Notes under the pieces: generated by a model
What the model was told of the DNA's origin: nothing
The model's input: the letters and a program-made list of their open reading frames with translations, nothing else
The model's database searches: none
Made by a program: the position numbers and the translations under genes
Part shown: positions 5,580 to 30,525 of the stretch, piece by piece
Numbering within the stretch: position 1 is the stretch's first letter
Layout: each line of letters begins with the position of its first letter
Source of the DNA: Natronomonas gomsonensis
Lineage (GTDB): Archaea; Halobacteriota; Halobacteria; Halobacteriales; Haloarculaceae
NCBI RefSeq assembly: GCF_013391635.1
Contig: NZ_JACAWU010000002.1
Span: forward strand, 1,488,001-1,552,000
Length of the DNA: 64,000 bases
Reading direction: 5' to 3'

Positions 5580-5903
5580 CGAATCGTTTGGGTGGTGAAC
5601 CTACTCGGCCTTATTTTTGGCCGGCCCTTCCCGCTGATTTCAACGATAAGGCCGGGGAATCTCCCTCATTTCGATAAATCGCCTGATAACGAGGGTTGAT
5701 TGCGCTTACGGATCCAATTGACGTGCTAAACTGCCGGTGAATCCTGCCGCCTACCGGGTAGAATTGACGAGCACAATACGGCACAAAAGTTATACTAAAT
5801 CCTCTATGAACGGTGATTTCGATGGTACAGTAGGGGAAAGCCTAGGCCGGGACACAACCCAAAGGTTCAATGTCCCATGTATTAAAGATGGGGTATCCCA
5901 AAA
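5580..5903. other. Non-coding stretch holding the left attachment site
   Basis: These 324 bases between the HEPN-like gene and the integrase carry the attL copy at 5838-5852. No convincing gene is seen. Short GC-rich boxes (TTGGCCGGCCC near 5620, AAGGCCGGGGA near 5649) resemble the boxes found at 7484-7970. Confidence 0.5.
5838..5852 (+). other. attL: 15-bp copy of the tRNA-Thr 3' end
   Basis: AAGCCTAGGCCGGGA here is identical, in the same orientation, to 30511-30525, which is the acceptor stem and distal T-stem strand of the tRNA-Thr gene. The integrase start codon is 52 bp downstream. A 3' tRNA fragment beside an integrase, with the intact tRNA at the far end, is the standard signature of tRNA-targeted integration. 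Confidence 0.88.
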
Positions 5904-7148
5904 GTGGCAGACATCAGAAAGCAAATCACAAACCTGCAAGACAGAATCGAAGAGTCTAGTGACATTAGTCGGGAAGATAAGGATCTTCTCCTGGAATTCA
6001 GTAACAAAATCGAACTCCTGAGATCGAAGTATACGGATCACCGACACAATAAGCTCCTCCGTCATTGCACTATCATGGCAGAGAATGTTGGCGGTCTGGC
6101 TGACGCCCTCGAGGACCGGGACGCTGCCGAGGAGATCGTCCTCTGGATTCACGAAAACTACGAAAACGAAAATACCAACCATGACTACCGGACCGCTCTT
6201 CGTGTATTCGGGAAGCATGTCTCCGAAGGCGAAGGTCACCCTCCTGGCATTGAATGGATTCCGTCCGGCACCTCGAATAGCCACGACCCGGTTCCGGATC
6301 CTGCTGAAATGCTGGACTGGAAGGACGACGTTCTTCCTATGATAGACGCCACTCGAAACTCCCGAGATGCGGCTCTTATCGCAGTTGCGTTCGACTCCGG
6401 GGCTCGAAGCGGAGAACTCCAAGGTCTCACCGTTGGTGATGTGAGTGACCACGACCACGGCCTCATGCTTCGAGTCGATGGCAAGACCGGACAACGATCG
6501 GTAACACTCGTCCCGAGCGTCCCCTACCTTCAGCGATGGCTGAGTGACCACCCAGATCCGGATAATCCAGATTCGCCTCTTTGGTCGAAGCTTAGCAAAG
6601 CAGAGGGACTCAGTTATCGTCAGTTCAAGAATTGCTTCGAGGACTCGGCAGAACGTGCAGGGGTTACGAAGCCGGTCACCCCGACCAACTTTCGTAAGTC
6701 TAATGCGACGTACTTGGCTCGGGAAGGGCTTGGTCAGGCCCAAATCGAGGACCGACAGGGACGAAAGCGTGGGAGCGAAGCGACCGCCCATTATATTGCC
6801 AAGTTTGCCGGCGAAGAAGACGATCAATACGCGCGTTTGCACGGGATGGATATCGAGGAGGAAGAGTCGGAACCCATAGGACCTGTCACGTGCCCCCGTT
6901 GTGACAAAGATACGCCGCGAGAGCGGGAAACTTGCGTCTGGTGTAATCAGCCCCTCGACTACGGTGCGATCGAGTCTATCGAACAAGACGAACGGGATGT
7001 TAGAGATGCGGTCTTTCGGTTCGCCAAGGAAAACCCCGAACTCCTCGACGACCTCGAACAATCTCGGACCTTCTCCGAGCTTATCGAAGACCACCCGGAA
7101 TTGGTCGGTGATGCGCAGGAATTCGTGGACGCCCTGTCGAACGAATAG
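5904..7148 (+). CDS. Tyrosine recombinase (integrase) with C-terminal zinc ribbon
   Basis: This 414-residue XerC/D-type site-specific recombinase is predicted to join the element to the tRNA-Thr site. Residues 1-120 form an N-terminal helical (SAM-like) DNA-binding region. The catalytic domain has the first Arg in 'GARSGELQGL' (near 167), Lys in 'DGKTGQRSV', Arg in 'NFRKSNATYLA' (near 263) and the probable Tyr nucleophile in 'AHYIAKF' (near 296). Box II lacks the usual H-x-x-R histidine (T-x-x-R here). A CxxC...CxxC zinc ribbon ('CPRCDK...CVWCNQ', about 328-347) follows, then an acidic tail. The start chosen is GTG; no in-frame upstream ATG is apparent. Confidence 0.9.
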   Translation: MADIRKQITNLQDRIEESSDISREDKDLLLEFSNKIELLRSKYTDHRHNKLLRHCTIMAENVGGLADALEDRDAAEEIVLWIHENYENENTNHDYRTALRVFGKHVSEGEGHPPGIEWIPSGTSNSHDPVPDPAEMLDWKDDVLPMIDATRNSRDAALIAVAFDSGARSGELQGLTVGDVSDHDHGLMLRVDGKTGQRSVTLVPSVPYLQRWLSDHPDPDNPDSPLWSKLSKAEGLSYRQFKNCFEDSAERAGVTKPVTPTNFRKSNATYLAREGLGQAQIEDRQGRKRGSEATAHYIAKFAGEEDDQYARLHGMDIEEEESEPIGPVTCPRCDKDTPRERETCVWCNQPLDYGAIESIEQDERDVRDAVFRFAKENPELLDDLEQSRTFSELIEDHPELVGDAQEFVDALSNE

Positions 7149-7150
7149 CT

Positions 7151-7345
7151 TCATCGACGAACTTCACGCCGAATTTTGTCCAATTCCGCTTGGACCTGAT
7201 CGATTGCTTCCACAGAACCCGTGTTCGCAAGTAGAGCAAGTGCATATGCTCGAGCCTCTTCGTCACCGTAGGCGAGTACTCGCGATAGAAACTCTGTGTT
7301 TCTACGAGCGTATTCTTCCAGTCCAGAAGGTATTTCACTACTCAT
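7151..7345 (-). CDS. Small uncharacterised protein (64 aa)
   Basis: This short acidic helical protein lies tail to tail with the integrase (2-bp gap). The start is well supported: a strong Shine-Dalgarno GGGAGGTG sits about 9 bases upstream of the ATG, unusual enough in haloarchaea to suggest internal translation in a short operon with the 29-codon frame upstream. The sequence ('YGDEEARAYALALLANTGSVEAI') looks like one or two helical hairpins. A regulatory or excision role would fit its place beside an integrase, but no family is recognised. Confidence 0.6.
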   Translation of the reverse strand: MSSEIPSGLEEYARRNTEFLSRVLAYGDEEARAYALALLANTGSVEAIDQVQAELDKIRREVRR

Positions 7346-7427
7346 CGACAGCCACCTCCCGTTGAGATTGGTCGATGAGACTGGTAGTACGATCGAGAGA
7401 CCGGATGCTGACGGTGTGCGCTGACAT
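7338..7427 (-). CDS. Possible 29-codon leader/small ORF upstream of the 64-aa gene
   Basis: Starting MSAHTVSIRSLDRTT, this frame overlaps the start of the 64-aa gene by 8 bases, and its end contains that gene's Shine-Dalgarno. It could be a small protein coupled to the downstream gene, or simply its leader. It has no clear Shine-Dalgarno of its own. Weak support. Confidence 0.3.
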   Translation of the reverse strand: MSAHTVSIRSLDRTTSLIDQSQREVAVDE

Positions 7428-8095: not shown

Positions 8096-11000
8096 TTATG
8101 ACGACCCACTGTCCCCAGACAATTGCTTCCGAACTGTAATCGCGTCTTCGGGTAGCAACCGATACGCCTGGAGGTGATACTCATCCCCTGCAGAGGTCAA
8201 CGCAATCATGTCTCCAGCCCCCTCAAGTTCCTCCGCACCGGGTTGATCAAGAATCACGCGAGAATCCGTATTCGAGGGTAGCTCGAAACTTACACGACAG
8301 TTGAAATTCGTCTTGATACTTCCGGACACAATATCTGCATCTGGACGCTGGGTAGCCAGTAAAATTGAGTAACCTAGAGCACGACCAATTTGTGCTAAGC
8401 GCCCAACAGCGTCCTCGAACTCATCCTGATTGTCCGAGAGAGACATAATTAGATCAGCGAACTCATCGATCACAATCACTCGATATGGGATCGGTTCAAG
8501 ATCCTGCATTGCGGCAAGTTTATTGAACTCTTGAACTGATGCCGCACCATGTTCACGGAGAGTCGCCCGCCGCTCTTCGAGTTCCCCCTCGAGTAGTGAG
8601 CGCAGATAGCCAACACAATCCTCGGCGTCATCGAGGTACGTGTCGATTTGAGGGAGAGATGCAAATCGGCCGAAGTCAATCCCTTTCGGGTCTAAGAGAC
8701 TCAACCGAACCCGAGTTGGAGGTTGGCAGGCGGCCAGACTACAGATACAACTGGCTAGAAAATTCGATTTTCCGGATCCAGTCGCGCCACCGATGAGCAT
8801 ATGATGTTCCTCAAGTAGATCCACAATGATGTGGTCATTCTCAGTATTAACCCCAAGCGGAATGTGGAGTGGCTCTCGAAGGGTTTCTCCCTGCTGTTCG
8901 AATGCTTCTCGGAGGTAGATATCCCGAGGTTCACCATGCGGGATCTCCAGACGGATTGCCCCTTCTGCAGGATTCGCAACACCGGTAATTGTCCCTGAGG
9001 CCTGCAGGTGCACACTAATCGAATCAAGTGCGTTGAGAATGCCACCAATCTTCTGACCAGATTTTGGCCGAACGTTCACTCCGAGTTTTCGTGGCCCGAT
9101 CGAGACATCAGCAGGATTCGGCTCATGAATATCTACACCAAGTGAGCCAAATTGCTCTTTGAGATCAGTGGTCAGACGAGAAATGTCAATCGTGATCGCA
9201 GTATCGGGACTCTGCGTCAGCGATCCCGTAAGCGACTCAAAGTCGGCTTCTCCCCAATCGAAGTCCAGACCCTGACCGTAATCTGTCTCGTCTTCAACGG
9301 TGGTACTACTACTCTCCGTATCTTCGCCCCGCTTCGTAGCATCGTCAGAGTCGGTCTCAGAATTCACGGAGTCAATTTCATCCTCCGAGTCTTCCGTCTC
9401 ATCACCATCTGTCCCAGTCTCACCAGAATGGTCTGCACTACCGGATTCTTGGACGATATCTGTCGCGGTGCCTAATTCGGATCCAGTTTGTGCGCGTTCG
9501 GAGGGGGAAACAGACTCCTCATCGTCGTCTGGTGAATCATCTGGCTCAACATCAGTTGTGGACGAGTCGTCCACGTCGGAATCAATTCCTTCATCGTCAT
9601 TATCAGCTGTCCCAGTCGATTCCACGTCTGACCCCGACGCAGGAGCTAGATTATACGAATCAAACACGAGCGGCCCCGTATCGAGATCGGGATGAATCTC
9701 GTTCTCACCAGTCGGTGGGTCGTTAATTAATGAAAGAACTGACGTTGGTAATTTGAGCACCCGAACACCGTCGCGGACACTTAACTCGGGAAGCGCAATA
9801 TTCTGCTGGATACGGATAACTTCACCCTTGTTCCCCGCAGCATCTGTAACCAGATCAATAGTATAATCGCCATCAATCAGCGCATTGGAGTGTTGTTCGA
9901 CGGTTTCGAGCCGCTCACTACTGAGAACGTCGTAGTGGTAGAGTCGGCGTGCAATCTTGGTGATAACATCGCCAAATTCGCTACGGAGCACCGATGTGTC
10001 CGCGTATGCCTCATCAGGCTCGAACAAATCGGTCAATTTCTCGCACGCACCGATGACCTGATCCACGCCCTTGCCGATACCTGCCGACCCACCCTTCGTT
10101 TCGACAACCCACATTTTCAGCGACAGATTCTCCGCTGTCTCATCCTTGGGAACGCCGATAAAGCAGAGATCATCCGATGCTTTACCGTCACCGAAGTACT
10201 GCAACAGTCCTTCTTCGTCGCTTCGGTAGCGCCGGTCATGGCGAGCGAACTCGGCGAGACTAATTGGGATCCACTCGTAAGCCGGAAGTTCACGTGCGAG
10301 CAGTTCGGCGCTCACGGCGAGCCCGCCGACTAACCCGAGCAGTTCTATAGTTGAGCTCCCCGTCGCCTGTTGGATATCAAGGGCCAGCTCGCCATCAATC
10401 GCTACCAAGCGGGTAAGGACGGTCTCAGGCGAGACGTCATCTAGTCCGGGCGTGTCATCCAGAACCTGTTGGAGTGACTGCAGATATGGGTCACGTTTGT
10501 CCGTGGTTGTGATCACGTCAAAGCCGGGGGAGGCTGCATCATACTGATCGCTGTAGTGAATCATCAACGTCTGGTCCGATACAGTCCCAGCCTGTGAAGT
10601 GGTACGCACGTAGAAGTCGAGGTCAACCTTCGGCTCAACATGTAGGACCCACAGTGACTCATCCCAGATACGAGGAAGATTCGTCTGGTCTGACGATGTA
10701 ATTACTTTACTCAGAGTCCGATCCGACGCAAATCCTTGGTCTCTCACACCTGCCTCCAATGCATTCACTGCAGCTCCAACACGGTTGAGCAAGTTGTCAT
10801 CGGATCCATTGAATGCCGCTCCAGACCGAGAAACGATATCACCACCACTGGAGTCAACCTCAATCTGGTCATGGGGCAATAGTCCATCCATACGGACCGC
10901 GCTGGGGAAGGTGTCGACTTCCATTGTCCCGGATTGTTCTTTTAGAATTCCTCGGAACAACGTTAAGTGAGCTGGTCTCCGTGTATCTTCATCAAATTGC

Positions 11001-13744
11001 TCGTCCGCATGGATGTAGGTGACGCGACGGTCAAGCAGATCAACAATATCTGTTTCATGAGACCGACTCCGGAGTGAATCACGGAGGGATGAATCCGTGG
11101 AATCCAAGGAGAAAAATCGTTCCAGCGTCTCTCCGTCGCCTGGGTCACCATAGATTTGGAGTGTGACCTGCGGTACATGCAATTCAGGGTGGTCAACCAT
11201 GAACTCGAAGAAATCAAACAGACCCTCGATTACTGGGCCGAGGTCACCCATATTTATTAGATTGATTTTCAACTGCCGTTCCTCATGAAGGGTAAACAGC
11301 AGTGGAAACGCCCTAGCAAAGGCCTCTAACTTGTCCGCAACGACATCTGAGATGTAATCTGGGGTCGTTGATCCAGGACCTTCTATCGGGGCATAAGCCG
11401 CCCAAAGGTGGTTGTTCCCTATTTGCAAACCTGAAAAAATATCATCAGCCGCTTGGCTCCACCGATACGGATTAAAGCCAGCCGGATTAAACACTGATTT
11501 GAACCGCGCGAATCGAAATCCCTCCGTCTGGCCGTTTGTAACCAGCTCTTCGCGCCACTCACTGAGTCGGAGACCGTACGCGAGCATCAACGGATGGAAT
11601 GGCGTCAGATACTCCACATCACCAGATGATGATCGGATCGTCCCAAGATCGCGGTAGGGGTTAAACGTGATTACTGCTGCTCCCTGATCAAGGCGTTCGA
11701 CAGCCCGTAGATACGTCGATAGTACCTGCTCAACAGTCGCCTGGGTTTCGTCGTCCCACGGATCCGTGGATGGGATCGTCCCTCTGTCCTCGAAGTGGGC
11801 AAACAGTTGTGTGTACGCGTCAATGAGATCCGCAGCCACGTGTTCAAGTTCGTCCTTTTGCGGAATCCCGGTACCTACACCTGTTTCTTCGGTCACACGA
11901 GGGGCTATCGTACCATCATTGACCATCAGCTCTTCAAGCTGTAACAATCGCTGGTCAGTCTCTGGAAGCTCAATCAGTCCACCGTTTGGCGAGTGGAACT
12001 CACCACTATCCAGATCAGTCACAACCGCAGAGTCAACTAAGAGGCCATCGTCAGCCCAATTGTCTGAATCGGTAATTGCTGCAAACGACAGCGGGAGTGG
12101 CACCTCCCCTCGGTTAGCTTCCTCAATTTCCGAGAGGAAGTCAATCGCGACCGGAACGGGGGTATCTTCCGATTCGATGATCTGACATCGTAAACGATCG
12201 ACTTTCGGTGGTGCTTTCGGTCGTAACAATACCGGCCGTGAGAGCGTGATCGTTTGCGATTCGTTTTGAATATCTTCGACAATCCGGTCTGCATCAGATT
12301 CGCGCGACGGATCGAGCGGAATTGCACTCTCATTTCGAACTATGAGTGCTTCATTTTCAACGTCGACAGCAAACGTGTCGTCCCCAATGGAATCGAAGAA
12401 CCACGTCGGAACGATCGCGATGTCGAATTGGTTCTGGGGTGTCCCACGACGTTCCTTGTGACCGACATAGACCTTGAGACTGTAATAATGCGGAGCCTCA
12501 GGATCTAGTCCAGAGAGCGAAATATGGATTTCATCATCATTAACGGAGACACCGTCGGTCCGCTCTCCAGCGCTGTTTACGAATTCTAATGGTTCGTCTG
12601 ATACATCAACATCGTATGTGATCGTGGCGCCGAAGGAACCACCAGGGGCAGTTGCAACAATACTCCGGTCGCCCGCTGTCTCTGATCCGGAGCCATAGAC
12701 GTTTACTGCGTCTGTTTCAACGTCTAACGATTCAAATTCCGGCTCCTTAGTTTCCTCTCGGCCGCCTCCACCGGATCCAGAACGGATAGGTCCACCACGA
12801 TCACCGTCATCACCACCATCTTCGCCAGGTTCAGGCGATGAACTTAGTTCTCCCTCCTTTGCTTCGGACCTAGTGACCGCTGCCCAATCCGTTCGGCTCA
12901 GAATGTCATTAATGAAGTCCTCATCATAGTAGGCAGCCAATTCGGACCGAGTATCCTTTGTGACAGCCATTGCGTCCTGAATCCGCTCGGCATGAGTGCT
13001 GTTCTGATCCAGAATTTGCTCTGCTTGACTAACGAGGTTGTCTTCGTCCTCGGATTTTTCGAACCAGTCATTATTGAATTCCGTCTCGGTCAGGTACGTA
13101 CCGAGTTCGGGGATGAGCCCAGATAACTGTCCTCCGTCTTCGTTGGCACAGGCATCATAAATGCGACAATAGATACGCAGTGGCTCAAGGTTTTCCATGG
13201 GGTCATCTGGGAAATTCAGCTCTGATTCGATCGCCCGTATAAGCGCCCGTCCAGGGGTGTTAAGCGGAGACAAGTCAGACCGGATTCGGTCTTCAAATTC
13301 TGACAACGGTAGCTGCCCATCTGCGGTAAACAAGGCATGAGTCGTATCAAGCGTCTCAATTCCGACACCCGCCTCATAGATCATCAATAGGGCTGCATTC
13401 GATTCTGTACGCCCGCGTTCAGCTAACACATTCCGGATCGTCGTTGCATACCAGCGAGACACTTCGTACGACTCGGTTACATCATCACCAGAGGCACGTA
13501 CAAGGACGATATGAAGCGGTGTTCCGGCCACCTCAATAGTCGGGATTGATTGGGTTACCCCCTCGTACTCGACTTCTTGATTAGTGAACTCAGATGCCAG
13601 TTCATCAATGATGGCTTCACAGACATTTTTAGCGGTCTCATCATTCGGGAATTCTGCCTCATATCGATCTCCGGGCTGAGGATCTAGTGTCGATGTTTGG
13701 GTATGAAACCACTTGGCTAGCGCGTCTTCAAATTGCCTGGACAT
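8096..13744 (-). CDS. dptH: DptH/DndH-like protein: FtsK-type translocase with nuclease-like core
   Basis: This giant protein (1,882 aa from the chosen start) resembles DptH, the large subunit of the Dnd phosphorothioate-dependent restriction module. The C-terminal quarter is FtsK-like: a beta-domain-type stretch ending 'RDIYLREAFEQQG', Walker A GGATGSGKS near residue 1655, Walker B 'VIVIDEFADLIM' near 1758, and 'ILLATQRPDADIVSGSIKTN'. Near residue 1215 'LCFIGV...KMWVVETKGGS' has the spacing of a PD-(D/E)xK nuclease core (E-x-K). An Asp/Ser/Glu-rich linker covers about 1370-1490. The ATG at 13744 was preferred over the upstream one at 13804 because GGGGAGG lies 8 bases before it; it overlaps dptG by 17 bp. 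The assignment rests on operon layout and motifs. Confidence 0.72.
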   Translation of the reverse strand: MSRQFEDALAKWFHTQTSTLDPQPGDRYEAEFPNDETAKNVCEAIIDELASEFTNQEVEYEGVTQSIPTIEVAGTPLHIVLVRASGDDVTESYEVSRWYATTIRNVLAERGRTESNAALLMIYEAGVGIETLDTTHALFTADGQLPLSEFEDRIRSDLSPLNTPGRALIRAIESELNFPDDPMENLEPLRIYCRIYDACANEDGGQLSGLIPELGTYLTETEFNNDWFEKSEDEDNLVSQAEQILDQNSTHAERIQDAMAVTKDTRSELAAYYDEDFINDILSRTDWAAVTRSEAKEGELSSSPEPGEDGGDDGDRGGPIRSGSGGGGREETKEPEFESLDVETDAVNVYGSGSETAGDRSIVATAPGGSFGATITYDVDVSDEPLEFVNSAGERTDGVSVNDDEIHISLSGLDPEAPHYYSLKVYVGHKERRGTPQNQFDIAIVPTWFFDSIGDDTFAVDVENEALIVRNESAIPLDPSRESDADRIVEDIQNESQTITLSRPVLLRPKAPPKVDRLRCQIIESEDTPVPVAIDFLSEIEEANRGEVPLPLSFAAITDSDNWADDGLLVDSAVVTDLDSGEFHSPNGGLIELPETDQRLLQLEELMVNDGTIAPRVTEETGVGTGIPQKDELEHVAADLIDAYTQLFAHFEDRGTIPSTDPWDDETQATVEQVLSTYLRAVERLDQGAAVITFNPYRDLGTIRSSSGDVEYLTPFHPLMLAYGLRLSEWREELVTNGQTEGFRFARFKSVFNPAGFNPYRWSQAADDIFSGLQIGNNHLWAAYAPIEGPGSTTPDYISDVVADKLEAFARAFPLLFTLHEERQLKINLINMGDLGPVIEGLFDFFEFMVDHPELHVPQVTLQIYGDPGDGETLERFFSLDSTDSSLRDSLRSRSHETDIVDLLDRRVTYIHADEQFDEDTRRPAHLTLFRGILKEQSGTMEVDTFPSAVRMDGLLPHDQIEVDSSGGDIVSRSGAAFNGSDDNLLNRVGAAVNALEAGVRDQGFASDRTLSKVITSSDQTNLPRIWDESLWVLHVEPKVDLDFYVRTTSQAGTVSDQTLMIHYSDQYDAASPGFDVITTTDKRDPYLQSLQQVLDDTPGLDDVSPETVLTRLVAIDGELALDIQQATGSSTIELLGLVGGLAVSAELLARELPAYEWIPISLAEFARHDRRYRSDEEGLLQYFGDGKASDDLCFIGVPKDETAENLSLKMWVVETKGGSAGIGKGVDQVIGACEKLTDLFEPDEAYADTSVLRSEFGDVITKIARRLYHYDVLSSERLETVEQHSNALIDGDYTIDLVTDAAGNKGEVIRIQQNIALPELSVRDGVRVLKLPTSVLSLINDPPTGENEIHPDLDTGPLVFDSYNLAPASGSDVESTGTADNDDEGIDSDVDDSSTTDVEPDDSPDDDEESVSPSERAQTGSELGTATDIVQESGSADHSGETGTDGDETEDSEDEIDSVNSETDSDDATKRGEDTESSSTTVEDETDYGQGLDFDWGEADFESLTGSLTQSPDTAITIDISRLTTDLKEQFGSLGVDIHEPNPADVSIGPRKLGVNVRPKSGQKIGGILNALDSISVHLQASGTITGVANPAEGAIRLEIPHGEPRDIYLREAFEQQGETLREPLHIPLGVNTENDHIIVDLLEEHHMLIGGATGSGKSNFLASCICSLAACQPPTRVRLSLLDPKGIDFGRFASLPQIDTYLDDAEDCVGYLRSLLEGELEERRATLREHGAASVQEFNKLAAMQDLEPIPYRVIVIDEFADLIMSLSDNQDEFEDAVGRLAQIGRALGYSILLATQRPDADIVSGSIKTNFNCRVSFELPSNTDSRVILDQPGAEELEGAGDMIALTSAGDEYHLQAYRLLPEDAITVRKQLSGDSGSS

Positions 13745-15197
13745 ACATTGCCTCCCCACTGTCACTCTGTTTCTGTAGCAGTCCCATCTCCTCGAGCTGC
13801 TCAATCAATTCCTGCTTGGACCGATGGTCAAATTGTATTCCTCGTTGTAACATGTATTGCCAGAATTCGTCGATGTGACCACGCTCTTTTTGCGCGTCAA
13901 AAAGGCGAGCAAACATGCGAAGGCTCGCCCGATCCAACCGAAGAATCGTTCCGACGCGCTGCCGGCGTTCAATGTACCGCCGTTCAGTTCCACGACCAAG
14001 TTGATACACAGCCTTGAATCCCATCGTGTAGGCAGTCTGGGATTCCGGGGACTTCCCCATATTTTCGTAGTACCGACGTACAGCGTGGGAGAATCGGATT
14101 GCAGCATCGTCAAGCTCGAACTCCTCATCGGGCCGCTGTTCCTCGGGGAATTCGTCAAGAAGGCGTGAGACAACCTCTGCTTGAAGATCCACTGGGAACT
14201 CGTTCAGCGCTTCTGTGAGAGTGTATGGCCGTGATTCGACCTCGTTCGATTCGTCTAAGCCGATGTCAACTACATGACTAAGCACTGCCAACCGCCCCCA
14301 AGAGTCGTATAAATGGCGTTCAATACCACCGCCCCCCCACTCTGTCGCAAATTGTCGTGATTTCGACGCGGCCTCATTTTCCATCCCGAAATAGAGGGGT
14401 TGGAGTTCGAATTTATACTCGAAGGGGGGCCCATCTTGTATCGAATCATATTCTTCAGCCAACGTAACGCTCACCTGCAAAAAATACATCATATAGTGAT
14501 AACACAATAGGTCACGGAGCCCCCGCATCCAACGAGATGACGACTCTGTTGACTGTAAATCAAGCCATGCTTCCAAATCGGCCTGAAACGCAGACGCACA
14601 TTCCGGCACAAGGGTCGGAATAATATTGTACTGATCCTCGGTCAATAATTCGTTCGCACCCATGTCCGTCGTGTCATCCTCAAGATTTTTCGCTGCCTCG
14701 ATAGCCAACTTTTCAACGAGGTTTGAGTACGGCATCTCGAACAGTTCATGAACAAACCGTTCATGCAATTCTTCATTAATCCGATTTTCCTCCGGTTCAG
14801 TCATCAACATCCAGTACCATCGCCACCAATTCCGCGGCTGATCCACCTCTAAGACCGTCGCCATCACCCGGTGAAACGGAATAACGTACGGTCGTGTTGC
14901 CGCGCCCGACCGACGTACACCTCGTTCACCGGTTGTAATGTAGCTTGCTTCAAAGGCCTTCCAGAGTTCAGATGCAGTCTGCTCAATCTCCGACAGATAT
15001 GATAAGTTCTTGAATTCCTCTTCTAATTCGTATGGTGTATGCTCAGGATCAGCTCCGAGGACACCTGCTAATGTCTCTGATAGCGTCGCCTCACGGAGAG
15101 TCCCGGATGGCGAGGCTGGGAAGAATGCTTGCTGGTTCGTGCGGTCAGGTGCGCGATTTGAACGACCCCAGTCAGGTACAAACCCGAAGTCTCTCAT
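13728..15197 (-). CDS. dptG: DptG/DndG-like protein of a three-gene restriction-like operon
   Basis: The 489-residue protein has no motif I can name. It is assigned as DptG-like from its place between a DptF-like ATPase and a DptH-like FtsK protein and from its length (the DptG family is about 400-450 aa). It is largely helical and soluble. Its ATG overlaps the DptF-like stop (TAATG), with GGAGGG about 8 bases upstream, and its end overlaps dptH, so the three genes form one translationally coupled operon. In known Dnd systems DptF, DptG and DptH act together to restrict unmodified DNA. The order dptF-dptG-dptH is the canonical one. Confidence 0.65.
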   Translation of the reverse strand: MRDFGFVPDWGRSNRAPDRTNQQAFFPASPSGTLREATLSETLAGVLGADPEHTPYELEEEFKNLSYLSEIEQTASELWKAFEASYITTGERGVRRSGAATRPYVIPFHRVMATVLEVDQPRNWWRWYWMLMTEPEENRINEELHERFVHELFEMPYSNLVEKLAIEAAKNLEDDTTDMGANELLTEDQYNIIPTLVPECASAFQADLEAWLDLQSTESSSRWMRGLRDLLCYHYMMYFLQVSVTLAEEYDSIQDGPPFEYKFELQPLYFGMENEAASKSRQFATEWGGGGIERHLYDSWGRLAVLSHVVDIGLDESNEVESRPYTLTEALNEFPVDLQAEVVSRLLDEFPEEQRPDEEFELDDAAIRFSHAVRRYYENMGKSPESQTAYTMGFKAVYQLGRGTERRYIERRQRVGTILRLDRASLRMFARLFDAQKERGHIDEFWQYMLQRGIQFDHRSKQELIEQLEEMGLLQKQSDSGEAMYVQAI

Positions 15198-21508: not shown

Positions 21509-22272
21509 TGTCGGTGACATCACTGGATGTGAGCGGTCGTGAATGCCTCTCGTTCACTGTGAGTGGTCCATGGGCGCATTTCCGACGTATCGACACCACC
21601 ACGGAGAAATTGACGTATCGGATTATCCCACGGACGACTGTTGCTGGGCTTCTTGCCGCCGTTCTCGGACTGCCGCGCAACTCCTATTATGACCTATTCA
21701 GTCAAGATTCGTCTGCAATGGCAATCTCTCCACAGTGCCAACTTGAGACGCAGTCTATCCCAATACTGACCTTACCGACCACGGCGAGCGATATCAAGAC
21801 TGCAGACGGGGTCTCTGGGAAAACAGTGGTTGACCCTGAAACCATCGCCGAGGAGCGGAAGCGGCGTACGTTCGAGTATATTGTTGATCCGTCCTACCGA
21901 ATTGACCTCGTCCTTGATGATGATGACAAGTTTGAGGAATTGACAGAGTATCTTCAGTCTGGGCGGGCAGTCTACACACCAGCCTTAGGAAAGTCAGAGT
22001 GTTTGGCAAACTTCTCCGAGGTGAAACGAACTACCGTGGCAGACGGTGGAGATTTGCAGTCGATTACGTCAACGGTTCCCGAAGAACACGTCGTTCCAAG
22101 TCCAGGCCAACCCCTCAGAATGGAACGAACACCAGCGTACATGCAAGCAACCGATGGTGGTCGCAAGACTACTGGATTCATTTCGTATGCCTATCCAACT
22201 GAGCAGCATCAACTGTCGGCACCTGATGCTGATGTCATGACGGTTGACGGCCGATCCGTCTGCTTCATCTAA
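21508..22272 (+). CDS. cas5: Cas5 (Cas5h-type) Cascade subunit
   Basis: The 254-residue RAMP protein caps the 5' handle of the crRNA in type I-B Cascade. The N-terminal 'ECLSFTVSGPWAHFRR' followed by 'YRIIPRTTVAGLLAAVLGL' is characteristic of Cas5. It overlaps cas7 and cas3 by one base each, within the uninterrupted operon cas6-cas8b-cas7-cas5-cas3. Confidence 0.92.
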   Translation: MSVTSLDVSGRECLSFTVSGPWAHFRRIDTTTEKLTYRIIPRTTVAGLLAAVLGLPRNSYYDLFSQDSSAMAISPQCQLETQSIPILTLPTTASDIKTADGVSGKTVVDPETIAEERKRRTFEYIVDPSYRIDLVLDDDDKFEELTEYLQSGRAVYTPALGKSECLANFSEVKRTTVADGGDLQSITSTVPEEHVVPSPGQPLRMERTPAYMQATDGGRKTTGFISYAYPTEQHQLSAPDADVMTVDGRSVCFI

Positions 22273-24878
22273 TGGCCAACCAACCTCTCGAATCGTACGA
22301 TGCACGCCCCGGCCAATCTCTCGCAGAACACATCGAAGGCGTCGCGGCTGGTGCCGAGGCACTCACCACTGACGCAGGAATGAATCCGTACGGTGACGAT
22401 TGGTCCGGGGTCTTGCAGACGTTAGCCTGGACACACGATATCGGGAAACTCACGGGGTACTTTCAGACCTACCTCAAAACAGGCGATAGACAGAGTGCCC
22501 CGCGGCCAGAATTGACCTATCACGGGACGTTCGGTGCCCTCGTCACGAGTCTCGCAATGGTCCGTACAGGTTATGCGCCAGAGACGGCAGCAGCAGGGTT
22601 CTATGCCGTCGCAAAGCATCACTCCGTCATCCAGAACATCCCGACCGATATTCGTCGATACCATCTCGATAAAGAGGCGGTCGATGCACGCTTCGAACTT
22701 GCCGAACAACAACTTTCGAACATCGACGCGACAGGATCTCCTGCAGCAGACGAGGCATTACGACAGGCGACAAATGGTGCGTACTCGTGGGATGAATTGC
22801 TAACTGATGGACTATCACGTGCACGGGCCACAATCAAGCAAATGGGCGAGCGGATTCCCGACGAAACCTTCTATGGATGTGTTCTACGCATGTGGTCGAC
22901 TCTCGTCACGGCGGACAAGTTCGATGCAAGTGGGATAACGACACGGGATGATGTCACTGGAGCCACCGAGATCTCACGTCCTGCTCCGAATCGGCTTACA
23001 TCCGAGGTTCGGAAGATAGCTGAAACGAAACTCTCTGACGGAGAACCCGCATCGGCGTATCTCGATACCCCCGACCGACCGTTACCCGCTCAATCGGCAT
23101 CTATCAAACAACGCCTCGACGGGCTTCGGACCGCTGCCAATGCTCGGACGACAGAGAACGTACTCAACGAATTCTCGGCCGGTAATCGCGTCTTCGAATT
23201 GACGCTACCGACCGGATTTGGGAAGACGTACACCGGCCTTCGCGCCGGGTTGTCACTTGCAGACCACCGGAATTCCCGACTCATCTACGCACTGCCGTAC
23301 ACTTCCATCATCGACCAAGTCGGATCGAATATCGAAGATGTCTTCGACATCAGTGAGACCGACCCGGCGTTCACGAAACACCATCACTTGGCAGATACGC
23401 GAACGGTTCAACACGAGGGAGACGACTTCGCAGATAGCGCGAGTTCTGGCCGAGAGACCCTCCACGCCGAAGCGTGGCGATCCGGCCTCATTCTGACCAC
23501 GTTTACGCAGCTATTGGAGAGTGTGGCTGGCCCAGGGAACGTCCAGTCGATGAAACTCCCTGCGCTTCAGGATAGTGTCATCATCCTCGACGAACCGCAA
23601 GCAATTCCGCTTCAGTGGTGGGAACTCGTCGGTCGATTGACCCGCTATCTCGTCTCAGAGTACGATGCGACCGTCCTGTTCATGACAGCAACGCAGCCGC
23701 GTATCCTCAACCAGATGGACCATGTACCCTCACCGACCCCAGTCGGGGGACTGCACGAGGACTGTATCGATCTCATCGACGACTATCCACGGGTTTCGTT
23801 CCGGTTACACGAGAGCCTCCAGCGGCACATCGAATCACCTGGCGGGCGGCCATATTCGCTCGCCTCTGCAGCCGACGAACTCCTCGAGGCGACGACTTCG
23901 CCGATGAACACTGCAGCAATCGTCAACACGGTGGATTCCGCGACGACACTAGCTACCCAATTAGACACGAGAGAAGATGTCGTCTTCTTAGGAAGCGAGC
24001 TACTATCGTATCATCAGGCATCCGAAGGTGACTCGTTCGATGCTTGTACGTATCTTGAATATCTTGCTGAGACCGTTGACGAGGACGCCCTCCTCGTTGC
24101 CACCCTGACGACTCGGCTTCGTCCGGTTGACCGAGTGTGTCTCATCGAAAGCCTGCGTGCGATTCTCGATGGGAAAATCGAGACCCCGTTCGATACCTCG
24201 CGAACGATTACTGTGACGACACAGTTACTTGAGGCAGGCGTCGATATCAGCTTCGACCGCTTGTACCGCGATCTCGCCCCGCTTCCGGCCATTGTTCAAG
24301 CTGCTGGTCGATGTAACCGGAGCTTCAGTGCTGACCCAAGCGAAGTGGTCATCTGGCGGCTCGACAGCCAGCCATCGGAGACGTTCGTTCCCAGTCAACT
24401 CATCTATGGCGATCACTCGCTACTCCGCCCAACGTTGACCGCGTTGGAGGCACTCCGAACGAAACATGGAGCTGAGGAACTGCCCGAAGGCGCAGTTATC
24501 TCGACGGGGATATCGGAGTACTACGACGCACTTCACGACCAGCGACAGACCGGACAGCGACAGGACCGACTCACGGCCGCGTTCGATACTGCGAAGGGGA
24601 AACTACTGCGGGAAGCATCGTTGATTGAGGAGACACAGTCGTCCAAGGAGGTTCTCGTATTAGTAACCGAAGAGGACACTACTCACTACGACGAGTACGT
24701 TGCCGCGAAGGCGGCTGATGAATGGGAGACAGCGAGACAGAAGTTCAACCAACTCAAAGAGTGTCTTGTGACCGTCTCTGACGAGTCTCAATCTGACGAG
24801 GACAAACTGGATGCCGTGCGTCCGGATGAAATCCACGAAAAGTACGATATCGAGACAGGAAGTGGTGTCCAGTTGTAA
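22272..24878 (+). CDS. cas3: Cas3 helicase-nuclease (HD domain fused to SF2 helicase)
   Basis: This 868-residue effector degrades DNA recognised by Cascade. The N-terminal HD nuclease has H20 in 'LAEHIEG', H55-D56 in 'WTHDIGK', and downstream 'TYHGTFGAL' and 'KHHSVIQ'. Helicase motifs are complete: Walker A 'LPTGFGKTYTG' (near 316), Walker B 'IILDEPQA' (near 440), 'FMTATQP' (near 470) and motif VI 'QAAGRCNRSF' (near 680). All catalytic positions look intact, so interference should be active. It is the last gene of the operon: cas4, cas1 and cas2, which usually follow in haloarchaea, are absent. Confidence 0.95.
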   Translation: MANQPLESYDARPGQSLAEHIEGVAAGAEALTTDAGMNPYGDDWSGVLQTLAWTHDIGKLTGYFQTYLKTGDRQSAPRPELTYHGTFGALVTSLAMVRTGYAPETAAAGFYAVAKHHSVIQNIPTDIRRYHLDKEAVDARFELAEQQLSNIDATGSPAADEALRQATNGAYSWDELLTDGLSRARATIKQMGERIPDETFYGCVLRMWSTLVTADKFDASGITTRDDVTGATEISRPAPNRLTSEVRKIAETKLSDGEPASAYLDTPDRPLPAQSASIKQRLDGLRTAANARTTENVLNEFSAGNRVFELTLPTGFGKTYTGLRAGLSLADHRNSRLIYALPYTSIIDQVGSNIEDVFDISETDPAFTKHHHLADTRTVQHEGDDFADSASSGRETLHAEAWRSGLILTTFTQLLESVAGPGNVQSMKLPALQDSVIILDEPQAIPLQWWELVGRLTRYLVSEYDATVLFMTATQPRILNQMDHVPSPTPVGGLHEDCIDLIDDYPRVSFRLHESLQRHIESPGGRPYSLASAADELLEATTSPMNTAAIVNTVDSATTLATQLDTREDVVFLGSELLSYHQASEGDSFDACTYLEYLAETVDEDALLVATLTTRLRPVDRVCLIESLRAILDGKIETPFDTSRTITVTTQLLEAGVDISFDRLYRDLAPLPAIVQAAGRCNRSFSADPSEVVIWRLDSQPSETFVPSQLIYGDHSLLRPTLTALEALRTKHGAEELPEGAVISTGISEYYDALHDQRQTGQRQDRLTAAFDTAKGKLLREASLIEETQSSKEVLVLVTEEDTTHYDEYVAAKAADEWETARQKFNQLKECLVTVSDESQSDEDKLDAVRPDEIHEKYDIETGSGVQL

Positions 24879-25006: not shown

Positions 25007-25892
25007 GTTTCAGGTGGACCCTTGGGCGGTTGAAGCTCGAGTTGCTAAGGATGCAATCACCGGATAAAAGAGCGTTTCAGACGGACCCTTGGGCGGTTAA
25101 AGCACCTGTACGAACCGCTGCGGCAGTTGCGGTGCGAACGGTTTCAGACGGACCCGTTGGCGGTTGAAGCTCGCCACCGACATAATCCAATGAACGACCT
25201 AATCCGCGTTTCAGACGGACCCGTGGGAGGTTGAAGCTGCACCCTCGTATTTGAGTCGGTGCTCATCAACCCAGTTTCAAGTGGACCCTTGGGCGGTTGA
25301 AGCAGCACGACCGTCCCGCAGACGGTCGCTGTTCCGATGGTTTCAGACGGACCTCTTGGGCGGTTGAAGCTCCCAGACGAAGATTAGTTGGCCGTGGATT
25401 TGGTCGTTTCAGACGGACCCGCGGGCGGTTGAAGCGTCCATCCCGCCGAGTGGCCCGAGCCCTTTGGTCGCGTTTCAGACGGACCCGTGGGCGGTTGAAG
25501 CAGCCGTATGCAGTGCATACACCACGTATGCGCTTTGTTTCAGACGGACCCGTGGGCGGTTGAAGCCGCTCGATCCCCGACGTGATCTCGACGTCGGAGA
25601 GTGTTTCAGACGGCCCCGTGGGCGGTTGAAGTGAGGCCGACGCCATCACGCCGAAGCTCGTCGTCGACGTTTCAGACGGATCCTTGGGCGGTTGAAGCCC
25701 GGCCCCCGAATACGATGTGAGTTAGTCGGAGGGTTTCAGACGGACCCATAGGTGGTTGAAGCGCCGGCCTGATTGAAGACCGGGAAACCCTCAATTTGTT
25801 TCAGACGGACTCTTGGGCGGTTGAAGCTACGGCGACCCAGGAACTGCCGGGGAAGCGGACCTATTTCAGACGTACCCTTGGGCGGTTGAAGT

Positions 25893-25990
25893 ATGGTTCT
25901 TATCATGGGTGCCATTGCGCTAGTCGTGTTTCAGATGGACTCCCGTAGGGTTGAAGCACTTGACGACGGTAAGGGCATCCAAGAGATTTC
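25893..25990 (+). repeat. CRISPR segment (spacers 14-15) duplicated at 27323-27421
   Basis: Spacer 14 (25893-25927), repeat 15 and spacer 15 (25958-25990) correspond to spacer 36, repeat 37 and spacer 37. Spacers 14 and 36 match at 33 of 35 bases; spacers 15 and 37 differ by a few substitutions and a one-base length change; repeats 15 and 37 share the odd form GGACTCC...TAGGGTTGAAG. Confidence 0.9.
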
Positions 25991-27322
25991 GTTTCAGATA
26001 AATCCTTGGGCGGTTGAAGCGAGCGCATCTGTACGCAGATGGAGAGCGTCACCGAGTTTCAGACGGACCCTTGGGCGGTTGAAGCAGACACTCGTTGGCG
26101 TCGAGCAGAGTGTCCTGAATTGTTTCAGACGGACCATGGGCGGTTGAAACATCATTGACGGGACAACGTTCGTCCTCGGGACCGCGTTTCAGACGGACCC
26201 TTGGGCGGTTGAAGCGACACCCGAACGAATCGCTATGAAATCGACAGCCAAGTTTCAGACGGACCCGTGGGCGGTTGAAGCAGAACACAGCACGCGACAG
26301 ACGGAGTTATAGACGTAGTTTCAGACGGCGCCTTGGGCGGTGGAAGCCTGAACAGCGGCGCCGAGATGCTTCGGGCATCCGGGTTTCAGAAGGACCATTA
26401 GGCGGTTGAATCGACCGCGAGGGCGACGGCTTCCGCGTGTCCCTCCCGTTTCAGACGGCGCCTTGGGCGGTGGAAGCCCGAATCACGATCTCCCGAAAGA
26501 GGTGAAGCACTAGTTTCAGACGGACCCTTCGGTGGTTGAAGCACGCGCGGGCTGAAGAAACTCGGTGACATCGAGATCAGTTTCAGATGGACTCTAGGGC
26601 GGTTGAAGCATCGAGAGACCGATCGTTATCTTGAGTCAGACGTGTATCAGATGGGCCCTCGTGGGATTGAAACATGACGGTCGCGTACATGATATGAGAG
26701 GCGATTGAATTTCAGACGGACTGCGTGGGTTTGAAGCCACATCTCGAAGTCTGCGCAGTGCTGCGCGTAGAGGTTTCAGATGGTCCCGTGGGCGGTTGAA
26801 GCGACCTCGTCACGTACAAGATGTATCCGTGGCTCCCCGTTTCAGACGGACTCATTGACGGTTGAACCAACCCGAACGATAGCCCCCTCCGGGCTGACAG
26901 CGAGTTTCAGACGGATTCATGGACGGTTGAAGTAACACCCCGGACCGGGACAACCCCGTAATTGAGTGGGTTTCAGAAGGACCCTCGGGTGCTTATAGTG
27001 CTGGACCGGCAGAGGAATTTATGAGCTACAAAGAGTTTCAGGCGGACCCCTGGGTGGTTGAAGCTCGAGGTACTTCTGCGGGTTCCTATGGGCGGCTTGT
27101 TTCAAACGGACGCGTGGGCGGTTGAAGCGGGACTGACAGCGACCCGGACGCGTACCGCTTCGAGTTCCAGACGGATTCTTGGGCGGTTGAAGCGGCACAA
27201 CCAAGATCGCGTCCACGCGTGTCTCGCATTTCAGACGGACCCATGAGCGGTTGAAGCATCCACCCAAACAGCAGCCCTGGGGGACCGGCAGCGGTTTCAG
27301 ACGGACCCGTAGGGGTTGAAGT

Positions 27323-27421
27323 ATGGTACTTATCATGGGTGCCATTGCGCTCGTCGTGTTTCAGATGGACTCCTATAGGGTTGAAGGACTTGACGACGGT
27401 AAGAACATCTCAAGAGATTAC
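27323..27421 (+). repeat. Second copy of the duplicated CRISPR segment (spacers 36-37)
   Basis: This is the counterpart of 25893-25990, 1.43 kb further along the array in the same orientation. Consecutive units recur in the same order, so it arose by segmental duplication rather than by two unrelated acquisitions. Confidence 0.9.
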
Positions 27422-28086
27422 GTTTCAGATGGACTTTTGGGCGGTTGAAGAGATGATCTGACCAAGGTTGACACATCGAACGACAACGTTTCAGATGGAC
27501 CCGTGGGCGGTTGAAGCTGGGACGCCCGCCACTGGTCCAATGGTCGGAAGGTGGTTTCAGACGGACCCATAGGCGGTTGAAGCAACCACTACCCGGAGGA
27601 CGGCCGTGTTGCGGTCACTGTTTCAGACGGACTCATGGGCGGTTGAAGCACCAAGACGCTCTTTGACACGGCGGAGAACAACGCGTTTCAGACGGACCCT
27701 TGGGCGGTTGAAGCACGGTCCCGCGTGACGAACTCCTCGCCAAAATTGAGGGTTTCAGACGGCCCCGTGGGCGGTTGAAGCGATCCACGGCACGCCATCG
27801 CCGGCCACCGAAAGCAGTTTCAGACGGATCCTTGGGCGGTTGAAGCAAGGCCGAGAACGCGATGTACGACATCGAACCCCAGTTTCAGACGGACCCGTGG
27901 GCGGTTGAAGCGGCCGCGCGTACGTCTTTGAGGGAGGTGGGTTCTGGTTTCAGACGGACCCACGGGCAGTTAAAATTGCGACCACTATCTCATCCAGTTC
28001 TTACCCCAAGGTGCTTCAAACGAACTCGTGCGATTGATCTCCCTATAGCAGGAGAGTACTTTTTGCCGTTGTGGTGCTGTACCGGA

Positions 28087-28262: not shown

Positions 28263-28303
28263 AACACTGCCCAGAATAGTGATGCCTCTCAGCAGGCAGC
28301 CGG

Positions 28304-30433
28304 TTAGCTCACGGTCGGCGCAAACTCCATATGGACGTTCGTCCCATCGGTGAGATTCACGACAGCCTGGCCGTGTCGCGCCAACTGGGAAGCGTCCGCA
28401 TCCTTGCCACCGAAGGCTGCCCGGAGCTTCGAGAGACCGTCTGTGAGGATCTCCCGGGCTTCTTGGCTGCTCTCGGGCCGGTATCCCATTCGGAGATACA
28501 GCCGTGGGTCACCGTCGGGATCGTCAACGCCCTCGAGATACCGCTGGACCCATCGGTCGAAGGGCGAGTCCCCATCAGTATCAGCCCCAGCCACGAACTG
28601 AGCGGCTTTGTCGGCAAGCCGGTCGACATGCTCTTGCCATCGGCCAAAGTCGCCCAGCAGGTCACCAGCGCGTTCTGCTAGCCGTTGAGCCAAGTGATGC
28701 GACTTCAACTCGACCGAGCCGTAGGAATGCTCAACAACATCCTCGAGCCGTTCCAACGATCGAAGGATCGTCTCGTAGTGCTTGCCCAGATCGGCTGCAA
28801 GCCCCTTCGGAGATGTTTCGCCACCGTCTGCGAGCAGCCGGTTGATGACTTTCGCATCAGTATCGTACCGTTCGGGGTTGCACATCTTCGTCACCGCCCG
28901 CGTTACCATATGCTCCTGTTCTCGTTCCAATTCGGGCAGTGGATCCGCAACCAGCGTCCGCTCACGGCGGCGGGGCTCAACCGTGAACACCGCGTCGTCG
29001 ACGAACACCTGGCGATCCGGCCGCGTCGGCAACCCTGCCCATCGGAGCGTGTTCAGCAGCTGCTCATCCAGCTCCCGTGCCATGTCGTTCAATCCAATCG
29101 CGTCCGCGTCGGCCTGCCGGTCGAATTCCAGCGCCTCGGGGTTCCAGTAGACTTTCGTATCCGAACGAGACCGTTGGTAGGAGACCCCCAGCTTAGGGTG
29201 CCGGAGAGGATCGTCTTCCTCGAGACTCTCCGGATGCTTGACGTGGTAGTGTTTCACCTCCTTCGCAAGCTGGTGCCCGGCCAGAATTTTTCGCGCCCGC
29301 ATCGAGCCGAAGGTTGCCGTATGATAGTAGCCGGCGACCTCTTGGTCGTCAGCGACGCGCTTGCGGTACCCAGAGCGTTCGCCGGCTAGTACCAAGTTCA
29401 TCCGCTCCAGCGGACCGTTGACGCCGAATAACGGCCCAGAGTAGTCCTCATCAATGCGGACATACTGCTCACCGTCGATGACGAGACTCCAGGGCTCGAC
29501 GTTCGGCGCCGACAAATAACGGTCACTTGCCGCGTTTGCGCCACCGTTCACTTCGAAGGCTTGCATCGCATGGTCCAACAGCTCGGGATAGGCACCCGGC
29601 TGGTGGTTCGCTCCCTGGGTGTCGACATCAATGCCGATGAAATCTCGCGGGTTTGAGGGCGTTGAGATCCCTTCTTCAGATTCGAGATTGGGCCATCGCG
29701 GCCGAATGTGGAAGTTCGCTTTTCGAATTCCATCAGCCGTCTCGACATGCAGCCGGAACTCTCGTACCTTCTCAATCCGGAACGACTCGTCATCCCAGGG
29801 CAACAGCTTCGACTCGTCAAACGTGAGAGTCACCTCATATTTCCGATCCTGGTACTCGATAACCCGGGTTGGCGGGCCATCACTCCAGTCAATCCGGCGC
29901 ATCAGCGAATGCAGCGCATAGTAGGGATCGAGACCGTGCTCGCCGAATTTCAGATATGCCCGAAACTCGTGCCACTGCGTGTCGACCAGGAACGTCCGCT
30001 GTTCCCCAGGGGTCTCACCACCGGCTTCGGGAGCCGGTGACTCTTCGTTTTCCTCTTCCTGACCCCGTTCGTCGACTGGCTTCTCGTCGTCGGTCCAGTG
30101 CGTATCCCGGTAGTGTTGAGAGTCCGGACATGTGGCGTGATGGGCGACCACGCCATCCGGATTTCGGCGTTCAGTTTCGCAAAAGCGACACACCCACCGG
30201 CCGGTGGTCGTCTCTTCGACGCAATCGTCAGCCTCGGCTTCATTGTCGATAGCGTCGTCAACGCTTTTCGACGTTGGAATATCGTCATGCTTTGCGATAT
30301 CTGCTCTTAGAAGTCCCTCAAGGAGGTCACTGGTTCGCTCTGACTCTGTACGTTCAGAGTCCTCATGAATTTCCTCCAGTCCAGGGACATCCGCATCGTC
30401 GCCCGTATGACGGTGGTCCGTCACAGGCGACAC
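28304..30433 (-). CDS. Large haloarchaeal element-associated protein (DUF7845-like) with zinc-finger and winged-helix-like parts
   Basis: This 709-residue protein is of a type often found in haloarchaeal plasmids and integrated elements; I recall it as DUF7845-like, without certainty. After an acidic N-terminus comes a CxxC...HxxxC finger ('CRFCETERR...HHATC', residues 82-102). The middle contains 'FIGIDVDTQGANHQPGAYPELLDHAM' and 'FGSMRARKILAGHQLAKEVKHYHVKHP'. The C-terminal part has a helix-turn-helix-like segment ('TSPKGLAADLGKHYETILRSL', near 530-550). DNA binding is likely; a role in replication or maintenance of the element is a guess. GTG start at 30433. It lies 79 bp from the tRNA-Thr end of the element. 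Confidence 0.7.
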   Translation of the reverse strand: MSPVTDHRHTGDDADVPGLEEIHEDSERTESERTSDLLEGLLRADIAKHDDIPTSKSVDDAIDNEAEADDCVEETTTGRWVCRFCETERRNPDGVVAHHATCPDSQHYRDTHWTDDEKPVDERGQEEENEESPAPEAGGETPGEQRTFLVDTQWHEFRAYLKFGEHGLDPYYALHSLMRRIDWSDGPPTRVIEYQDRKYEVTLTFDESKLLPWDDESFRIEKVREFRLHVETADGIRKANFHIRPRWPNLESEEGISTPSNPRDFIGIDVDTQGANHQPGAYPELLDHAMQAFEVNGGANAASDRYLSAPNVEPWSLVIDGEQYVRIDEDYSGPLFGVNGPLERMNLVLAGERSGYRKRVADDQEVAGYYHTATFGSMRARKILAGHQLAKEVKHYHVKHPESLEEDDPLRHPKLGVSYQRSRSDTKVYWNPEALEFDRQADADAIGLNDMARELDEQLLNTLRWAGLPTRPDRQVFVDDAVFTVEPRRRERTLVADPLPELEREQEHMVTRAVTKMCNPERYDTDAKVINRLLADGGETSPKGLAADLGKHYETILRSLERLEDVVEHSYGSVELKSHHLAQRLAERAGDLLGDFGRWQEHVDRLADKAAQFVAGADTDGDSPFDRWVQRYLEGVDDPDGDPRLYLRMGYRPESSQEAREILTDGLSKLRAAFGGKDADASQLARHGQAVVNLTDGTNVHMEFAPTVS

Positions 30434-30510
30434 CCCATTTTATGAGGTTTGAACTGTGAAGTACAAGGCGTATTCTCCCTATAATCGGGAGAATTTGAAC
30501 GAATCGTACC

Positions 30511-30525
30511 AAGCCTAGGCCGGGA
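30511..30525 (+). other. attR: tRNA-Thr 3' end joined to the element
   Basis: AAGCCTAGGCCGGGA, identical to 5838-5852. It covers the discriminator base, the 3' acceptor strand and the start of the T-stem of the minus-strand tRNA-Thr, so recombination here leaves the tRNA gene whole. Confidence 0.88.

Follow-up and report, generated by a model that had tools for sequence, protein, structure and literature searches.

A probable integrative plasmid-like element at tRNA-Thr(GGT) of Natronomonas gomsonensis with DndFGH-like genes and a type I-B CRISPR array of divergent repeats

Introduction

A 64,000-nucleotide stretch of the genome of the haloarchaeon Natronomonas gomsonensis (NCBI RefSeq assembly GCF_013391635.1, contig NZ_JACAWU010000002.1, positions 1,488,001 to 1,552,000; this whole stretch is referred to below as the window, and all positions are counted within it) contains a tRNA-Thr gene and, some 24.7 kb away, a tyrosine recombinase gene, each associated with one copy of a short direct repeat. 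This raises the question of whether the DNA between the copies entered the chromosome as a unit, by which enzyme, and what it brought along. A preliminary description, made from the sequence alone, had proposed a tRNA-Thr-integrated element with exact attachment (att) sites. Empty sites in two relatives, a recurring layout, and an association between the integrase family and tRNA 3′-end copies support this proposal, and we regard positions 5838 to 30510 as a 24,673-bp integrative element in the 3′ end of tRNA-Thr(GGT), with a probability of about 93%.

Results

Attachment cores, tRNA gene, and integrase

The ends of the element comprise the following features.

5838 to 5852, plus strand: integrase-proximal attachment core, a copy of the tRNA-Thr 3′ end (reverse complement); exact repeat, found at the same place and in the same orientation upstream of related integrases
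5904 to 7148, plus strand: tyrosine recombinase (integrase) of 414 amino acids (aa) with a C-terminal CxxC...CxxC (zinc-ribbon-like) tail; PF00589, E 3.4e-14
7151 to 7345, minus strand: open reading frame (ORF) of 64 aa beside the integrase, candidate accessory factor for recombination; kept in four related elements
30511 to 30525, plus strand: tRNA-proximal attachment core; exact 15-bp repeat
30512 to 30583, minus strand: intact tRNA-Thr(GGT), the integration target; ARAGORN, Rfam (70.4 bits); an orthologous DUF7114 gene (30613 to 31266) lies beside the tRNA in relatives

The direct repeat AAGCCTAGGCCGGGA is present at both core positions exactly as the preliminary description had reported, and these are its only two exact copies in the window; a third core copy was not found there at up to 3 mismatches. 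Since the tRNA gene spans 30512 to 30583, its 3′ end accounts for 14 of the 15 bp in the right copy. The end of the left copy is separated by 51 bp from the GTG start of the recombinase gene. The accompanying argument that an exact match of this length is very unlikely by chance held in part. For a given 15-mer, about 1.2e-4 occurrences are expected (64 kb, both strands, uniform bases); however, 34 different 15-mers recur in the window outside the CRISPR array (overlapping ones counted apart), a number that would also suit a chance repeat in an ordinary variable island built by homologous recombination. The 15-bp repeat by itself therefore carries little weight, and the case rests on the placement of the copies, at the tRNA 3′ end and on the integrase side, and on comparison with other genomes.

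Empty sites in related genomes

The 1.4-kb right flank was searched in 20 genomes of the same genus (G codes denote genomes of relatives, and L codes denote individual loci). All matched, many weakly or just at the tRNA, and identity reached 96% in G001 and 94% in G010. The left-flank genes are colinear in both genomes (G001, window positions 1 to 4193 at 93.0%; G010, positions 1 to 3360 at 91.4% and 3530 to 3615 at 88.4%). In each, the left-flank genes come directly after the tRNA, with a single core copy and without 5838 to 30510, to which the flank-bearing stretches showed no DNA-level match. Neither genome combines both repeat copies with absence of the insert, an arrangement that would have spoken against an element.

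The expected empty site was thus found with one core copy and without the insert, but the fit is not exact to the base. About 1.2 to 2.2 kb directly left of 5838 is missing from both relatives as well, and for this reason the literal junction of 5837 with 30511 was not seen. Their core is 14 bp long (AGCCTAGGCCGGGA) and is preceded by G, where the window has A; the repeat is exact over 15 bp within the window, whereas the core held in common with the empty sites has 14 bp.

Integrase family and its attachment sites

A search at E 1e-3 detected relatives of the integrase in 31 of 60 relatives, and one at E 1e-100 detected them in 55 of 194 genomes of the order. For comparison we assembled 40 integrases, namely that of the window plus 14 and 25 from the two surveys, with loci and at least about 44% identity; the weaker loci L003, L004, and L018 to L033 were left out. 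Residues R168, K194, R264, and Y297 and the four tail cysteines are identical in all 40, and the usual catalytic H of the HxxR motif is replaced by T in 39 (checked by coordinates and tblastn).

We then screened the 250 bp upstream of each gene against a reference set of 34 distinct tRNA 3′ ends, requiring a match of at least 12 bp. A tRNA 3′-end copy (13 to 23 bp) precedes 20 of the 40 integrases, the window included, compared to 0 of 231 control windows. All 20 copies have one orientation and start 62 to 137 bp before the assumed gene start, and their targets are Thr(GGT) in 10 cases, Thr(CGT) in 6, and Phe in 4. Integration by this enzyme, inferred in the preliminary description, thereby gains comparative backing. 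The same core at the same spot and in the same orientation at related integrases of other genera and families also led us to reject a chance repeat, whose probability we consider negligible.

The full layout, consisting of a tRNA, an integrase of the family, and a tRNA 3′-end copy of 13 to 24 bp at the integrase start, recurred at 9 of 23 other loci. Four of 12 came from a first set (G109, Thr GGT, 21 bp; G213, Thr CGT, 15 bp; G260, Phe, 15 bp; G017, Thr GGT, 14 bp, with ends about 56 kb apart) and 5 of 11 from a second (G168, G115, G199b, and G071, all Thr GGT, with 14, 13, 17, and 24 bp; G199a, Phe, 15 bp). Six of the 20 integrases with an upstream copy belong to the same elements as these nine loci. 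The small ORF beside the integrase gave tblastn matches of 53 to 68% identity in G034, G168, G115, and G103 and matched no family in Pfam or PHROG.

Among viral integrases, the nearest are those of the tailed viruses BJ1 (38.6%) and Humcor1 (40.9%). SNJ2 was absent from the tblastn matches at E 1e-3, and membership in the IntSNJ2 group was rejected, as the best local BLASTP match covered 28 aa (E 0.043). An SSV-type integrase split by integration was likewise rejected, as the core lies 51 bp upstream of an intact ORF. A second integrase of the family, 51% identical, is encoded elsewhere in the N. gomsonensis genome (L002/L076, C1:364453-365664). Behind it comes a convergent, stop-containing fragment that resembles an integrase, and the neighboring core-like sequence, AAGCCAAGGGCCGGCTTT, is a different one. 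Second tRNA-end copies were sought and not found at this paralogous locus or in G039, G030, G044, G029, G020, G028, and G013.

DUF7845 gene and nature of the element

The gene nearest the tRNA has the following coordinates.

28304 to 30433, minus strand: DUF7845 protein of 709 aa, rolling-circle initiator of the Rep-Arvir type, with its start directed toward the tRNA 3′ end; PF25227, 2.2e-96

DUF7845 was published in 2026 as the Rep-Arvir family of rolling-circle initiators, from work on virus SNJ2 (PMC13107129). The window protein shares 33.7% identity with the SNJ2 homolog over 74% of the query, and KHY of the catalytic motif (residues 394 to 396) is also kept at 30 of 30 other loci. The gene occurs in 157 of 243 genomes of the order. 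A tRNA accompanies it at 22 of 30 loci retrieved, always on the same strand and upstream, as in the window, although the 22 are not independent, since several represent one site in one genus. DUF7845 occupies the tRNA end in 7 of the 9 full-layout loci, and among the matches listed, integrase and DUF7845 face inward, as judged by eye, in 10 of the 12 pairs that share a contig and lie within 60 kb (window included).

From these features, we infer the following cycle. The tyrosine recombinase would join a 14- to 15-bp core on the circular form (attP) to the identical core of the tRNA (attB), and the tRNA would stay whole because of the copy supplied by the element. On the circle re-formed by excision, the DUF7845 (Rep) and integrase genes would be divergent, head to head across 143 bp containing attP. 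By analogy with SNJ2, Rep may then drive rolling-circle replication of this form. Neither virion nor conjugation genes were recognized, the virion check having covered the named large ORFs and only part of the small ones. Given this, and given a tRNA-proximal gene of the DUF7845 (Rep-Arvir) family, the most fitting description of the locus is an integrative element of probable plasmid-like nature. A pleolipovirus or tailed-virus provirus that became defective by losing its virion genes and gained defense cargo would accommodate the DUF7845 relatives in pleolipoviruses SNJ2 and LSV-48N and the occurrence of the closest viral integrases in tailed viruses. We consider it improbable, as no virion gene was recognized (spike and capsid profiles covering part of the small ORFs), the integrase shows no homology to the SNJ2 enzyme, and integrase, FGH genes, cas genes, array, and DUF7845 fill the span and leave hardly any space.

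Several observations weigh against integration as described here. The full layout was missing at 14 of the 23 loci, where the integrase, the tRNA, or the copy was lacking in the stretch examined, and tblastn detected no DUF7845 in G017 and G071. In G039 (L068) and G030 (L074), the integrase lies directly downstream of a whole tRNA-Thr(CGT), the core orientation is reversed, and the stretch examined contains no second core copy; this arrangement is not explained by the integration picture. In N. gomsonensis itself, the integrase is present once at 100%, and there was no sign of a free circle. Finally, the DNA left of 5838 that the relatives lack implies that this boundary is not the whole insertion history.

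Additional DNA at the left end

Judged from sequence, the insert is real, yet its left side holds a further piece of DNA. A pilin-like gene of G001 (58% identical to window positions 3399 to 4625) ends 14 bp before the core; in the window, 1.2 kb more DNA lies at this point. An ORF of 314 aa (4635 to 5579, minus strand) is located immediately outside the left core; it is absent from G001 and G010 and has no Pfam, PADLOC, or PHROG family match. It contains, by eye, an RxxxxH motif like that of HEPN nucleases, and it is possibly a remnant of another insertion.

The island could accordingly be composite, with an older insertion (4626 to 5837, including the possible HEPN-type ORF) beside the 24.7-kb element in a tRNA hotspot, so that the mobile unit or its history would be larger. 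Besides the extra 1.2 kb, a low GC content of 0.504 in 3399 to 5837, below the 0.538 of the element, is consistent with this, as are tRNA 3′-end copies that mark other insertions at the same tRNA in G011 (35 bp, 1.8 kb away) and G005 (20 bp, at 4.2 kb). The failure to find a third core copy argues against it, and the gene may instead have been lost in the relatives. We place a composite origin just short of even odds. The earlier claim that all AT-richer and defense genes lie between the two repeat copies was not borne out, since 3399 to 5837 and also 41845 to 43655 (GC, 0.475) are AT rich. The latter stretch, outside the element, carries genes for an MjaI-type restriction endonuclease and an N6/N4 DNA methylase.

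Defense cargo

The cargo, predicted to act against viruses, comprises a DndFGH-like module and a type I-B interference system together with its array of stored spacers.

8096 to 13804, minus strand: DndH/DptH-like, 1902 aa, C-terminal FtsK-type ATPase; PADLOC DndH 3.9e-81; TIGR03237 5.1e-69, below the curated cutoff
13728 to 15197, minus strand: DndG/DptG-like, 489 aa; PADLOC DndG 2.6e-21; TIGR03236 above cutoff
15197 to 16924, minus strand: DndF/DptF-like, 575 aa; PADLOC DndF 2.4e-32; TIGR03238 above cutoff
17112 to 17206, minus strand: two-repeat CRISPR fragment upstream of cas6; Rfam RF01337
17476 to 18243, plus strand: cas6b; PADLOC Cas6b 2e-140
18240 to 20459, plus strand: cas8b; Pfam TM1802 7.7e-14; Cas8b 1.2e-20
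20462 to 21508, plus strand: cas7b; profile matches
21508 to 22272, plus strand: cas5b; profile matches
22272 to 24878, plus strand: cas3 (HD and helicase); profile matches
25007 to 27976, plus strand: CRISPR array, 46 repeats, 39 of them distinct, three spacers matching haloviruses

DndC gave no match in the genome, with a model that exceeded its cutoff in 0 of 14 control genomes as well; DndD was above cutoff in none of the four trio-carrying genomes (N. gomsonensis, G119, G280, and G027), with weak matches in an 896-aa frame. A DndG-like gene occurs in 4 of 96 genomes of the family (N. gomsonensis included). Its carriers have it at other places, and element genes at the same place without the repeat, a further arrangement that would have contradicted the preliminary description, were not encountered. 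In G280 (L166/L167, C1), the trio lies behind a DUF7845 gene about 3 kb from tRNA-Thr(CGT), with no second core within 60 kb; the DndG-like gene is found twice in this genome, with identical scores. In G119, a methyltransferase gene precedes the trio. DndFGH without modification genes, archaea included, has been published (PMC10853773).

The type I-B set of cas6, cas8b, cas7, cas5, and cas3 is present, and all five ORFs are full length compared to relatives. Of the adaptation module (cas1, cas2, and cas4), Cas1 and Cas2 were sought genome-wide and neither was matched (genome 99% complete), while the Haloferax volcanii control was positive with both models. Because neither protein was found, the host genome would not by itself be able to extend the array. 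Type I-B loci without adaptation genes have been described on haloarchaeal proviruses (PMC12596717). Three of the 45 spacers match tailed haloviruses, namely BLv36 (32/35), HSTV-1 (31/36), and CGphi46 (31/35), and the protospacers are adjoined by TTC in BLv36 and HSTV-1 and by TAC in CGphi46. Matches of the array to plasmids are mainly repeat driven.

In the 17112 to 17206 fragment, the second repeat is followed by a near duplicate of the spacer at 27847 in the main array. A creA-like role of this fragment was rejected, as the 5′ end of its spacer has no match of at least 9 nucleotides (nt) elsewhere in the window. One 8-nt match at 19556, with TTC beside it, is regarded as chance, and no creT-like target was found in the window.

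Divergence of the array repeats

Of the 46 repeats, 39 are distinct and three equal the consensus; in comparison, six control arrays from haloarchaeal plasmids contain 2 to 5 distinct repeats among 24 to 61. In six repeats, 8 or more aligned positions deviate from the consensus, in some cases clearly through an insertion or deletion; these six were dropped from the position count, which used the 40 repeats with at most 7 differences. Positions 9 to 20 hold 73 of 104 changes compared to 41.5 expected (highest of 10,000 simulations, 61). When each distinct nonconsensus repeat was counted once (n = 32), positions 1 to 8 and 23 to 30 together held 23 changes compared to 51.7 expected (lowest of 20,000 simulations, 33). 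These simulations overstate independence, since the repeats descend from one another by duplication; a segment of two repeats and two spacers is duplicated at 25863 to 25990 and 27294 to 27421 and has since diverged in both repeats and spacers. In the Haloarcula hispanica repeat, Cas6 is described as binding mainly nt 2 to 8 and Cas5 as binding the final 8 nt, whereas the adaptation anchors are placed at 11 to 15 and 18 to 22 (PMC9458426). The most changed sites, 16 and 17, are neither Cas-binding nor adaptation-anchor positions. The changes would thus spare the Cas6- and Cas5-binding ends, as expected of a memory that is used yet not updated, and the array looks, from its sequence features, like an immune memory that could still be used, though without further updating.

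Plain neutral decay of a dead locus would likewise fit a genome in which Cas1 and Cas2 were not found, the six strongly deviating repeats, and the differing spacers of the duplicated segment. The deficit of changes at the repeat ends (in repeats that are not fully independent) and the full-length cas ORFs argue against such decay, which we consider less likely than not. A mobile, acquisition-locked memory is a further possible reading, to which we likewise give clearly less than even odds: positions needed for acquisition only would have diversified, those bound by Cas6 and Cas5 would have stayed under selection, and the diversity would perhaps shield the 45 spacers from loss by repeat-repeat recombination during moves between hosts. 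None of the open-access papers listed in searches on CRISPR, repeat degeneration, and missing cas1 has a title or abstract that mentions such a diverged array.

Among five relatives with Cas8b, Cas1 was matched in three, one of the matches being partial; the arrays of these three are near-uniform (81/82, 56/58, and 11/14 exact). L187, with no Cas1 match, has one near-uniform run (14/15 exact) and three degenerate runs, and L190 is degenerate; changes at positions 1 to 8, 9 to 20, and 21 to 30 number 6, 28, and 11 in L190 and 6, 23, and 18 in L187. A rule by which absence of cas1 entails degenerate repeats was rejected. The only CRISPR locus of Halobacterium GSL-19 is adaptation deficient (PMC12596717), and its repeats are mostly uniform (exact repeats, 19/20 and 6/7 in two arrays and 2/7 and 4/4 in two others), so that time or selection would also be needed for degeneration.

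Discussion

The mobile element itself is of a known kind; what sets it apart as an unusual variant is its combination of genes and the condition of its CRISPR array. With the betapleolipovirus SNJ2, as described in PMC13107129 and PMC8371274, it shares integration at the 3′ end of a tRNA through a short core (13 bp in a SNJ2-like provirus of Halovivax, according to a review), the DUF7845 initiator family, and the location of Rep and integrase at opposite ends that would meet on excision. According to the same sources, SNJ2 has Rep and Int in one operon and a replication region rebuilt only on excision, whereas the two genes of the window element would be divergent. In addition, its integrase has a C-terminal cysteine tail and is nonhomologous by BLASTP, and the element carries defense cargo and no recognized virion genes.

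The adaptation-less type I-B proviruses (PMC12596717) likewise have cas6-cas8b-cas7-cas5-cas3 without cas1, cas2, and cas4 on an integrated mobile element, and virus-directed spacers. They contain viral genes and nearly identical repeats, in contrast to the window element, with no virion genes recognized and 39 of 46 repeats distinct. The decoupled DndFGH modules (PMC10853773) resemble ours in having a complete F-G-H operon without phosphorothioation genes, whereas the operon described here lies on a tRNA-integrated element beside CRISPR-Cas, with DndH below the NCBIfam cutoff. In CreTA, as set out in PMC9458426, the adaptation anchors (nt 11 to 15 and 18 to 22) are degenerate, the repeats still serve Cascade, and degenerate repeats resist recombination. 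There, one or two ectopic repeats guard the Cas genes, whereas the window has a whole array of 46 repeats with virus-matching spacers.

One element with mapped ends unites three things that had been reported apart, namely Rep-Arvir replication, a stand-alone DndFGH module, and adaptation-less CRISPR. Since elements of this family are spread over several tRNA genes and over different haloarchaeal families, their attachment sites would be predictable from sequence, and the integrase might be developed into a defined tool. The array is a natural experiment on two questions, namely which segments of a repeat interference still requires after acquisition has been lost and whether diversification of the repeats stabilizes immune memory.

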